From the NCBI GenBank assembly GCA_011049425.1, contig DSBM01000049.1, forward strand, positions 1-33,650: a stretch of 33,650 bases of DNA. Direction: 5' to 3'. Source of the DNA: Candidatus Aminicenantes bacterium. GTDB taxonomy: Bacteria > Acidobacteriota > Aminicenantia > UBA2199. Every line of letters begins with the position of its first letter. Positions within the stretch are counted from its first letter, which is position 1. Position numbers and translations under genes: made by a program. The notes beneath the pieces are model-generated. The model had not been told where the DNA came from. It saw only the letters and a program-made list of their open reading frames with translations, and did no database searches. This document shows positions 229 to 2,698 of the stretch, one piece after another.

Positions 229-737
229 GCGCCTCCCGCAAACTCAAGCGGCGGCATATCTTCCTCGGGGTCTTCTCCAAGGTAAAAGGCCCACTCATTG
301 TAGCGCTTACGGCCACGGTACTCCAGGAAACCCGATTCCGGTGAAGTGGAACAAACGCCGACAATACTGGCCTGGGTAAGATACCTTCCGGCTGCACTCA
401 GCGGCACAATCAGCAGTTTCTTGTTTCCGGAACCCGGTTTCATTACCAGATTCCACTCCCCGGTGAGCGAGAGTGGGTCGGTGTACAGCCGTCGGATGTG
501 CTTTTCCTTTTCCAGAATGCGCAAACTGGGGGGGGGCTGGTTGAGGTGTTCGCGCGCGTAACTTTCGATGGCCCGGACATACTGGCGACCGCGGAACATC
601 AATTCTGCCTCCAGGTCACGGCGGATCACGGTCTGCCAGCGGGCACGTCCCATTAACATAAAGACAGCGGCAATTTGAACGGCAAACAGCGCCGCCAGCA
701 AAACGTATCCCCGGGTGCGGCGATTACCAGTTTTCAT
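225..737 (-). CDS. Pseudopilin-like membrane protein (second of a pair)
   Basis: The protein has 170 residues from the chosen ATG at 735-737. After a short basic start (MKTGNRRTRG) comes a hydrophobic helix at about 10-30 (YVLLAALFAVQIAAVFMLMG), then a charged helix containing R-R-D-L-E-A-E-L-M-F-R-G-R-Q-Y. This is the layout of atypical type II secretion/type IV pilus minor pseudopilins, in which a Gly-Tyr replaces Gly-Phe and the Glu at +5 is absent. A late Y-N-E-W block recalls partner pseudopilins of acidobacterial-type genomes. An earlier in-frame ATG at 819-821 would overlap the upstream gene by almost 100 bases and has GGAGG directly against it, so I prefer the internal start, which overlaps by only 14 bases. 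The role as a pilus or secretion subunit is inferred; no secretion ATPase is in the window. Confidence 0.7.
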   Translation of the reverse strand: MKTGNRRTRGYVLLAALFAVQIAAVFMLMGRARWQTVIRRDLEAELMFRGRQYVRAIESYAREHLNQPPPSLRILEKEKHIRRLYTDPLSLTGEWNLVMKPGSGNKKLLIVPLSAAGRYLTQASIVGVCSTSPESGFLEYRGRKRYNEWAFYLGEDPEEDMPPLEFAGGA

Positions 738-1113
738 AGCGGCCGGGTTGTTCTTCTCCGGAAGGGATGCTGACGCGTATGTCCACGATGGCCTGGGCGA
801 GGTCGGGGTCGTAGTCTTCATCCTCCGCGGGCTCGTAGTATACGGGAATCCAGTCCGCCTTATTTGTGAATGGGTTTTCGGGTAAGCGTTTCAGGTATCG
901 ATGGCGAACCAGATCTTCCAGACTGGTCGGGTATTTGTGTTTATCGTAGGTGTATTTTTCAATGGCATCACGAATCTGAAAGAGGTTCTCTTTCAACACC
1001 GATTCTTTGGCCCGTTTGACCGATGCGGAGTAATTGGGAATCAGGATGGCGGCCAGGATCCCGATCAGGGCCATGACGATAAGGATCTCGGCCAGTGTAA
1101 AACCCCGTTGCAT
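724..1113 (-). CDS. Type II secretion GspG-like pseudopilin
   Basis: The protein has 129 residues and a very short prepilin leader, M-Q-R-G, before the canonical prepilin peptidase site: G4|F5 followed by T-L-A-E, with Glu at +5 and a hydrophobic helix (ILIVMALIGILAAILIP). The body (LFQIRDAIEKYTYDKHKYP, then a Y-L--LPENPFT segment) follows the GspG-like fold, in which short periplasmic domains bind calcium or pack as the main pseudopilin. It ends in G-R-Y-E-N-W, like a family of single GspG-type proteins I know from Acidobacteriota. The ATG at 1111-1113 is chosen because the leader would otherwise be far too long. A good promoter ends only six bases before it, so the mRNA may be leaderless. 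It is followed with overlap by the second pseudopilin and lpxB. Confidence 0.85.
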   Translation of the reverse strand: MQRGFTLAEILIVMALIGILAAILIPNYSASVKRAKESVLKENLFQIRDAIEKYTYDKHKYPTSLEDLVRHRYLKRLPENPFTNKADWIPVYYEPAEDEDYDPDLAQAIVDIRVSIPSGEEQPGRYENW

Positions 1114-1147: not shown

Positions 1148-1212
1148 ATATGGCCTGGCGGCTGGAGGCAAATGGCGAGAGGCGAGGGGAGACTGAGTCG
1201 AAAGTCTAAAGC

Positions 1213-1436
1213 TAAAAGTCGAAAGAAAACAGACAAAGCCTTGTGATGAGAACTCACGAGTGCTTGTGATGAGGCGCGAAGCGCCCTGGTGATGAGGACC
1301 CTTTCGGGTCTGTGATGAAAATCAAGAAATTCCGAATAATGAATAAGGAAGAACGAATAAAAAAACAGGAAAAGAGCGGAATCGCAAGGCATTTTTGGTG
1401 CCTTATTCGGCTTTTACTTTCAACTTTCGACTTTTA
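1213..1436. repeat. 13-bp perfect inverted repeat bounding a 224-bp segment
   Basis: TAAAAGTCGAAAG at 1213-1225 returns as its exact reverse complement at 1424-1436. Both arms sit in degenerate AAAGTC/AAAGTT runs, so simple-sequence slippage could explain part of the match. No flanking target-site duplication and no transposase are seen. The layout resembles a small non-autonomous element, but this is inference. Confidence 0.5.
1241..1320. repeat. Four-copy 23-bp array: constant tag plus variable palindrome
   Basis: The 10-base tag TTGTGATGAG, or a 1-2 base variant of it, begins at 1241, 1264, 1287 and 1310, an exact 23-base period. The 13-base segments between tags are unrelated in sequence, yet each is self-complementary: ACT-CACG-AGT in the first, GGCGC-GAA-GCGCC (1273-1285) in the second and GACCC-TTTC-GGGTC (1297-1310) in the third. 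Pairing is kept while the bases change, which suggests selection on a hairpin in RNA or single-stranded DNA. The unit is far too short for CRISPR. Function unknown. Confidence 0.85.
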
Positions 1437-1504
1437 CCTTTTCACTGATTTTTCTTGTCTCCTGATACCTGTTCCCTTTTTTCACTTCTTCCCTTTTCAA
1501 CTCT

Positions 1505-2698
1505 TCAACTCTTTTTGTTGTATTCCTCGACGCCTTCCAGCAGGACCTCGCAGGCGCGGCGCAGTCTGGAGGTTTCCAACACATAGGCCAGGCGAACTTC
1601 TTGCCTGCCTTTGCCGACGCTGGAGTAGAATCCGGCTCCCGGCGCCATCATAACAGTTTCATTTTCGTGGTTGAAAGATTCCAGCATCCAGCGGGCAAAG
1701 AGGTCGGAGTCATCTACCGGAAGTGTTGCCATGACATAAAAAGCACCTTCAGGCTTGTGCAGCAGGATATCCGGATTGGAAGTCAGGGTTTCCACCAGAA
1801 TGTCGCGGCGTTTCTGATATTCAGCGCGAATAGAATCAAAATAGTTTTTCGGCAGAGCGTACGCCGCCACCGCGCCGACCTGTTCCAGAGTGGGTGGGCA
1901 CAAGCGCGCCTGGGCGAATTTCATGATTGCGCCCATAATCTCCGGGTTGCGGCACATCACCGCTCCGATGCGGGCGCCGCACGCGGAATAACGCTTCGAT
2001 ATCGAGTCGAGAACGATTGCCCGGTCTTCAAGATCCTCCAATTCCAGGATACTGAAGTGACGTGTTCCCTCGTAAGTGAATTCCTTGTAGACTTCATCGG
2101 CGATGAGAAACAAATTGTGTCGCCTGGCCAGATCGCCCAGCGTACGGATTTCATTTTCCGTGAATACGGTTCCGGTGGGGTTGTTGGGGGAGCAGATCAG
2201 GATGGCCCTGGTTTTGGGCGTAATCAGGGATTCAATCTGTTCGGGATCCGGCAGGTGGAATCCGCATTCGGCAGCCGTGGTGACCGGGACGATGCGGATG
2301 CCCGATAGCGAACTGTAACCGTTGTAGTTGGTATAGAAAGGCTCGGGAACGATCACTTCATCCCCGGGGTCGGCGACGGCGTTGATGGCGAACGAAACCG
2401 CTTCCGATCCGCCGGTGGTGATAATAATCTGATCAGGGGTCAGCGCTATATCGAAGCGGGCAAAGTAGTTGACCATGGTGCGGCGTAATTCGGGCAGGCC
2501 GTCGGAGGGGCCATAAGCCAATACCGGCTCGGCATAATTGCGGATGCCCTCGAAGAATGCTTCGGGGGTGGGAATATCCGGTTGGCCGATATTGAGATGA
2601 TAAACCCGAATCCCGAGCGCTTTGGCGGCATTGGCTGGTGCGGACAGCTTGCGAATCGGGGATTCCTGGATATCCCTGGCTCGTTGTGACAGGTTCAT
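1505..2698 (-). CDS. Class I/II PLP-dependent aminotransferase (aspartate aminotransferase type)
   Basis: The 397-residue cytosolic enzyme is predicted to transfer an amino group between an amino acid, probably aspartate, and 2-oxoglutarate using pyridoxal phosphate. Visible family features are Y-G-P-S-D-G near 62-67, TTGGSEA near 94-100, PNNPTGT near 171-177 (the cofactor-contacting Asn), ADEVYKEF at 200-207, and S-I-S-K-R-Y-S with the PLP lysine K235 followed by G-A-R-I-G. The start ATG at 2696-2698 has a strong AGGGAGG ribosome site; a longer reading frame upstream runs through nadA and is not real. It diverges from nadA across a 114-bp promoter region. Substrate choice cannot be read reliably, so I give no gene symbol; an alanine- or aromatic-specific relative remains possible. 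The link with NAD synthesis through aspartate is inference. Confidence 0.9.
   Translation of the reverse strand: MNLSQRARDIQESPIRKLSAPANAAKALGIRVYHLNIGQPDIPTPEAFFEGIRNYAEPVLAYGPSDGLPELRRTMVNYFARFDIALTPDQIIITTGGSEAVSFAINAVADPGDEVIVPEPFYTNYNGYSSLSGIRIVPVTTAAECGFHLPDPEQIESLITPKTRAILICSPNNPTGTVFTENEIRTLGDLARRHNLFLIADEVYKEFTYEGTRHFSILELEDLEDRAIVLDSISKRYSACGARIGAVMCRNPEIMGAIMKFAQARLCPPTLEQVGAVAAYALPKNYFDSIRAEYQKRRDILVETLTSNPDILLHKPEGAFYVMATLPVDDSDLFARWMLESFNHENETVMMAPGAGFYSSVGKGRQEVRLAYVLETSRLRRACEVLLEGVEEYNKKS

Follow-up and report, generated by a model that had tools for sequence, protein, structure and literature searches.

A GTGATGA-tagged array of short hairpins in Candidatus Aminicenantes is probably one copy of a genus-limited, REP/BIME-like intergenic repeat

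A 33,650-nt stretch of DNA from a Candidatus Aminicenantes bacterium (hereafter the window; GCA_011049425.1, contig DSBM01000049.1, positions 1 to 33,650) contains, in the spacer between an aminotransferase gene and a pilin-like gene that are both encoded on the minus strand, an array of short palindromes joined by a constant tag. We consider it probable (roughly 0.6) that this array is a copy of an intergenic repeat, dispersed, non-autonomous and specific to the genus, that works like REP/BIME elements. The copy number of the repeat, its intergenic sites, the constancy of its tag, the palindrome bias of its inserts and the differences by whole units between its copies were observed directly, and they are set out below together with the features of the window copy (Table 1).

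Table 1. Features of the window array and its surroundings (window coordinates).
Feature	Position	Strand	Remarks
Neighbour: type IV pilin-like protein, N-methylation motif	724..1113	-	PF07963
Left flank, AAAGTCGAAAGAAAACAGACAAAGCCTTGTGATG at right end	1170..1250	+	matches type-2 left ends
Intergenic island, approximate	1176..1472	.	100% identical to G001 counterpart L243
Left arm, imperfect 38-bp inverted repeat around array	1203..1240	+	76% complementary
Repeat body common to other loci (array + right flank AAATCAAGAAATTCCGAATAATGAATAAGGAAGAACGAATAAAA)	1240..1365	+	
Tag 1, GTGATGA	1243..1249	+	
Insert 1, GAACTCACGAGTGCTT	1250..1265	+	weak 3-bp dyad
Tag 2, GTGATGA	1266..1272	+	
Insert 2, GGCGCGAAGCGCCCTG	1273..1288	+	5-bp stem, GAA loop
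Tag 3, GTGATGA	1289..1295	+	
Insert 3, GGACCCTTTCGGGTCT	1296..1311	+	6-bp stem, TTTC loop
Tag 4, GTGATGA	1312..1318	+	
Right arm, imperfect 38-bp inverted repeat	1409..1446	-	matches type-2 left ends in reverse
Neighbour: class I/II aminotransferase	1505..2698	-	PF00155

The four tags (in order, GTGATGAG, GTGATGAG, GTGATGAG and GTGATGAA) follow one another at a step of exactly 23 bp, as the original prediction had stated. What is special about the array is this 23-bp phase: lone tags occur in the window at chance frequency (7 observed, 6.6 expected), and a pattern of two tags separated by 14 unspecified bases, with up to three mismatches allowed, was matched 46 times in the whole 2.62-Mb genome, versus 0 matches for the reversed control pattern. 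All three inserts between the tags had been expected to fold, and two of them are predicted to do so, insert 2 (GGCGC-GAA-GCGCC) at -7.9 kcal/mol and insert 3 (GACCC-TTTC-GGGTC) at -8.6 kcal/mol. Insert 1 (ACT-CACG-AGT, 3 bp) gave no fold in isolation; in the predicted fold of the whole array, CTTGTGA pairs with TCACGAG, drawing in tag 1, instead of forming the insert 1 stem. The sense strand of the 90-nt array is predicted to be more stable than shuffled versions of it (z -4.1, 0/200).

Further copies, which the original prediction had proposed to look for in the genome and its relatives, were found both in the genome under study (G000) and in a second genome of the genus, the only other one examined (G001). 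We parsed ~30 loci from the two genomes, all arrays included, with gene neighbours assigned from open reading frames only, and found two forms of the repeat. Type 1, the form present in the window, has 3 to 5 tags and inserts of 14-18 nt, and type 2 is composed of a tag, ~15 nt, a tag, a large hairpin of 38-47 nt (CGGCC...GGCCG), a tag, 16 nt and a final tag. At 6 loci (L016, L017, L020, L023, L245 and L246) elements of both types are set face to face across a gap of a few bp or one extra small module, and two of these composites fold better than expected (L017, z -4.2; L246, z -5.7). Units are mostly 22-25 bp long, with a constant part of ~9 bp, and are intergenic at most loci with readable neighbours. 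Tags are 23 bp apart in 66 of 100 short steps, with spacings of 21, 22, 24, 25 and 42-54 bp also present. The full GTGATGA is found in 113 of 164 tags and GTGATG in 144, and columns of the aligned arrays that belong to tags are 98.6% identical, compared with 69.2% for the remaining columns. Insert types recur by position across loci (GAACTCACGAGTGCTT, then GGCGCGAAGCGCCCTG, then GGAnnCTTTCGGGTCT), the first of them also at contigs C116, C154 and C34 and in G001. The claim that the inserts differ completely therefore holds within the window array but not beyond it, where the same types stand in the same order; the inserts are not unrelated sequences, but diverged modules of one element. Several copies in sense orientation lie 23-70 bp 3' of a stop codon (L010, L014, L018, L019, L023, L024 and L027), and others (the window copy, L009, L016, L020 and L021) are antisense to the nearest gene or point away from it.

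Profile models of the two forms gave 25 type-1 and 13 type-2 matches in G000 (~38 arrays in a 2.6-Mb genome) and 14 type-1 and 10 type-2 matches in G001, with a few weak matches overlapping between the type-1 (R1) and type-2 (R2) models. Contigs C116, C29 and C90 of G000 and C131, C49 and C91 of G001 have an array no more than a few hundred bp from their ends, and because many contigs break near arrays the true copy number is probably above this count. Neither model matched any of 32 other genomes of the family. The exact three-tag pattern was present in only G000 and G001 among 142 genomes of the class, and a looser three-tag pattern yielded just isolated single matches outside G000 and G001 among 396 genomes of the phylum; one phylum match, in G261, was discarded as a near-identical tandem repeat. 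An exact match in Candidatus Aminicenantes contig JAFGNX010000040.1 (L043) has the same position as the match in G001. When genomes and viral contigs were scanned widely for the exact pattern, the matches listed were mostly coding sequences or simple tandem repeats, and a search for carriage by phages and plasmids gave no match to the repeat. In Clostridia-type genomes (L070, minus strand, ~585-830; L110, 4240-4430; L071, 2990-3280; L152, 6700-6822), a near-constant (G)TGATGA(T) linker connects differing hairpins, and in the chains at L070 and L110 forward blocks are followed by inverted ones. Compared with Rfam 15, the array matched no family above the gathering cut-off, and Rfam matches at 14 related loci were to tRNA and RNase P only. 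We found no description of a GTGATGA tag in the literature searched, which excluded preprints and most subscription journals. With many intergenic copies, confinement to one genus and no Rfam match, the sequence data support the original suggestion of a dispersed repeat that had not previously been described.

Selection on insert pairing is statistically supported, although the rule is a loose one. Distinct inserts are predicted to fold more stably than chimeras in which their right halves were swapped (mean -2.16 versus -1.21 kcal/mol, z -5.3), and the difference persists when similar inserts are collapsed to 42, 31 or 16 representatives (z -4.7, -4.9 and -4.3, respectively); none of 1000 chimera sets reached so low a value. 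Insert palindromes are kept across copies only in part, 58% of distinct inserts folding alone and ~42% failing to do so. The type-2 alignment contains two-sided changes in 3 of 23 pairs, with a covariation term of ~0 and little variation among the sequences. Selection for structure, which the original prediction read from bases changing together on both sides of each stem, is thus borne out by the chimera comparison, but column covariation is thin and the claim as worded was too strong. Hairpins that hold the tag in their loop, with stems spanning it, were considered and rejected, as they show no excess over chimeras (z +0.3).

Recombination near tag 1 seems to have produced the window copy, since its left flank groups with type 2, being common to type-2 left ends at L246, L009, L250, L025, L016 and L026, and its body and right flank group with type 1 (the body is 93% identical to L009, 90% to L011 and 85% to L010). 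A promoter-like site is located near the pilin-like gene, at 1147-1120 on the minus strand.

Loss, gain or wholesale replacement of arrays between the two sister species was observed directly. G001 is ~78% complete, and presence or absence was judged by flank-anchored comparison. The array is missing from G001 at 7 of 10 comparable loci (L010, L012, L015, L020, L022, L023 and L026, the absence at L010 being read from two overlapping contig ends) and present in both species at the other 3 (the window, L018 and L014). The spacer at L020 is 474 bp in G000 versus 34 bp in G001, and that at L023 is 407 bp versus 88 bp. The empty sites in G001 are not clean; the flanking spacer has also been replaced, and no target duplication is readable. 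At L014/L248 the tags are retained and the inserts replaced, and at L024/L244, beside one common gene, the two arrays differ by a single unit, with a differing spacer between. Over ~300 bp the window spacer shows no difference from its G001 counterpart (100% identity), and the adjoining genes are 84-95% identical (80-bp steps). The comparison fits a scenario in which whole intergenic islands are exchanged and turn over, modules being gained and lost inside them, but the identity of the window spacer could instead be caused by strong selection. The intergenic spacers at L009-L027 and L243-L271 are patchworks in which low-complexity blocks with a period of ~7-8 bp (AAAGTCGAAAGTTGAAAG, GACAGGTGACAGGAGACAGG, GTAGAAGGTAGAA and GGCGAGTGGCGA) recur, and these blocks are exchanged between the sister species.

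Our preferred reading, a REP/BIME-like repeat, builds on a layout in which short imperfect palindromes follow a constant, presumably unpaired GTGATGA tag, with 3-5 tags arranged head-to-tail every 21-25 bp, mostly 23. A nuclease or transposase supplied in trans, most obviously one of the Y1/HUH class, would recognize the tag and its hairpin in single-stranded form. Copies may also spread and be reshuffled when whole intergenic islands recombine or when recombination takes place between tags. The repeat probably has no dedicated cellular function, and its hairpins, if transcribed, would affect mRNA ends incidentally. In E. coli, a Y1 transposase reads the REP tag on folded single-stranded DNA (PMC8266576), and not every type of REP has a dedicated transposase (PMC3733652). 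G000 and G001 combined have five Y1 transposase genes, three of them in G000, and GTGATGA arrays flank none of the five. No inverted repeats were detected around three of them. The Y1 gene at L258 has a 35-bp inverted repeat, AGGAAGAGGGACGGTTCTTGACAATTTGACAATTT, at 237-271 and 1194-1228, and in this it resembles published transposases that bear terminal repeats instead of REPs.

REP families likewise combine a constant unpaired tag with stems that vary between families, so the contrast with REP elements drawn in the original prediction was overstated, and other REP/BIME features, namely extragenic location, short differing stems, facing dimers, clusters and sites that are often between convergent or same-direction genes, are also present here (PMC3733652). 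Like REPs, which are extragenic, multicopy palindromic units of 20-40 bp, the repeat is extragenic and multicopy, with units of mostly 22-25 bp and imperfect palindromy. It differs in that the tag is GTGATGA and not GTAG or CGTC at one end, tags lie on both sides of each hairpin, the prevailing layout is a head-to-tail chain of several hairpins with an almost constant 23-bp step, and the element is genus-limited and low in copy number, with no RAYT gene flanked by repeat copies among the five Y1 genes. Because the repeat lacks two defining features of REPs, the GTAG or CGTC tag and the flanked RAYT gene, we have not filed the element as a REP. The copy number of ~40 is low for a REP and counts against our preferred explanation. 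In our reading, the novelty lies in the GTGATGA tag plus the head-to-tail layout. Palindromes with a GTAG tag and varying inner arms, built as GTAGGGGCG-variable-CGCCC, are also present in both genomes (L010, 2311+; L024, 2601+; L026, 21+; L247, 3115+; L262, 1044+; L266, 86-; L268, 937+) and look like classical GTAG REPs. Degenerate TTGTAG-like chains, head-to-tail with steps of ~22-25 bp, were noted by eye at L015 (~2385-2475) and L259 (~2100-2250), and their layout parallels that of the GTGATGA arrays; a search of the class for three-tag TTGTAG arrays returned nothing convincing.

Other small repeats show partial similarity. MITEs are small, non-coding, dispersed and structured, and an imperfect inverted repeat surrounds the window island, but across copies we found no consistent terminal inverted repeats or target duplications. 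Neisserial intergenic mosaic elements, 70-200 bp long, resemble the repeat in being composite and intergenic, with short repeat units in exchangeable intergenic blocks. Compared by description, however, they have conserved inverted repeats around larger blocks and are without a GTGATGA tag. Those elements are named in PMC3049150, as is the Streptococcus BOX element, a dispersed repeat built from modules, with predicted stem-loops and inner units that stand in tandem in varying numbers. By description, the inner units of BOX are copies of one sequence, whereas here the inserts differ and the short tag is constant.

Alternatively, the array could act as RNA, transcribed from an upstream gene or on its own. 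Its hairpin chain would then either stabilize mRNA 3' ends or hold GUGAUGA tags single-stranded for binding by a small RNA or an RNA-binding protein. The stable predicted fold of the sense strand, UUCG-type loops on the tag strand of several inserts and the sense copies shortly downstream of stop codons agree with such a role, yet the orientation of copies is inconsistent, Rfam has no match, 42% of inserts fail to fold alone and 7 of 10 copies are missing from the sister species, and we regard an RNA element as a real but minor possibility. The much better conservation of tags than inserts and the dominant 23-bp phase would also suit a double-stranded, iteron-like array in which a DNA-binding protein contacts GTGATGA at each 23-bp step, or about two helical turns. 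Because the variant spacings, including those of 42-54 bp, break helical phasing and the palindrome bias of the inserts would be left unexplained, such an array is quite unlikely, and its scattered sites and fast turnover also speak against it.

A guide-RNA array like those of CRISPR or TIGR systems, in which the tags would be the repeats and the inserts the spacers, is very improbable. The repeat is constant and the insert variable, as in TIGR arrays, and GUGAUGA resembles box C (snoRNA C/D-box scores were weak and sub-threshold), but the inserts are self-complementary and recur across loci, and the ~40 short arrays are dispersed. TIGR-Tas proteins have a Nop domain (PMC12045711), and the Nop domain PF01798 had no match in G000 or G001, where positive controls were detected. 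As the original prediction held, the array is unlike CRISPR: it has no 24-48 bp direct repeats separated by unrelated spacers, and the constant part measures only ~9 bp. Chance or simple tandem slippage, which the chance-level frequency of lone tags in the window might suggest, can be given practically no weight in light of the excess over the control pattern and the dispersed homologous copies with conserved insert order.

REP-like repeats have so far been sorted mainly by two tags, GTAG and CGTC, and a third tag together with hairpins placed head-to-tail at a fixed step would broaden the class. A speculative and rather doubtful extension, prompted by the chains in unrelated Clostridia (L070 and L110), is that GTGATG-linked hairpin chains form their own class of single-stranded-DNA mobile repeats across phyla, served by an enzyme of their own. 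A near-constant tag with rewritten stems would offer a clean test of the role of the tag, and spacers that are swapped almost wholesale between the sister species, next to genes that are still recognizable, make the spread and loss of such a repeat directly measurable.
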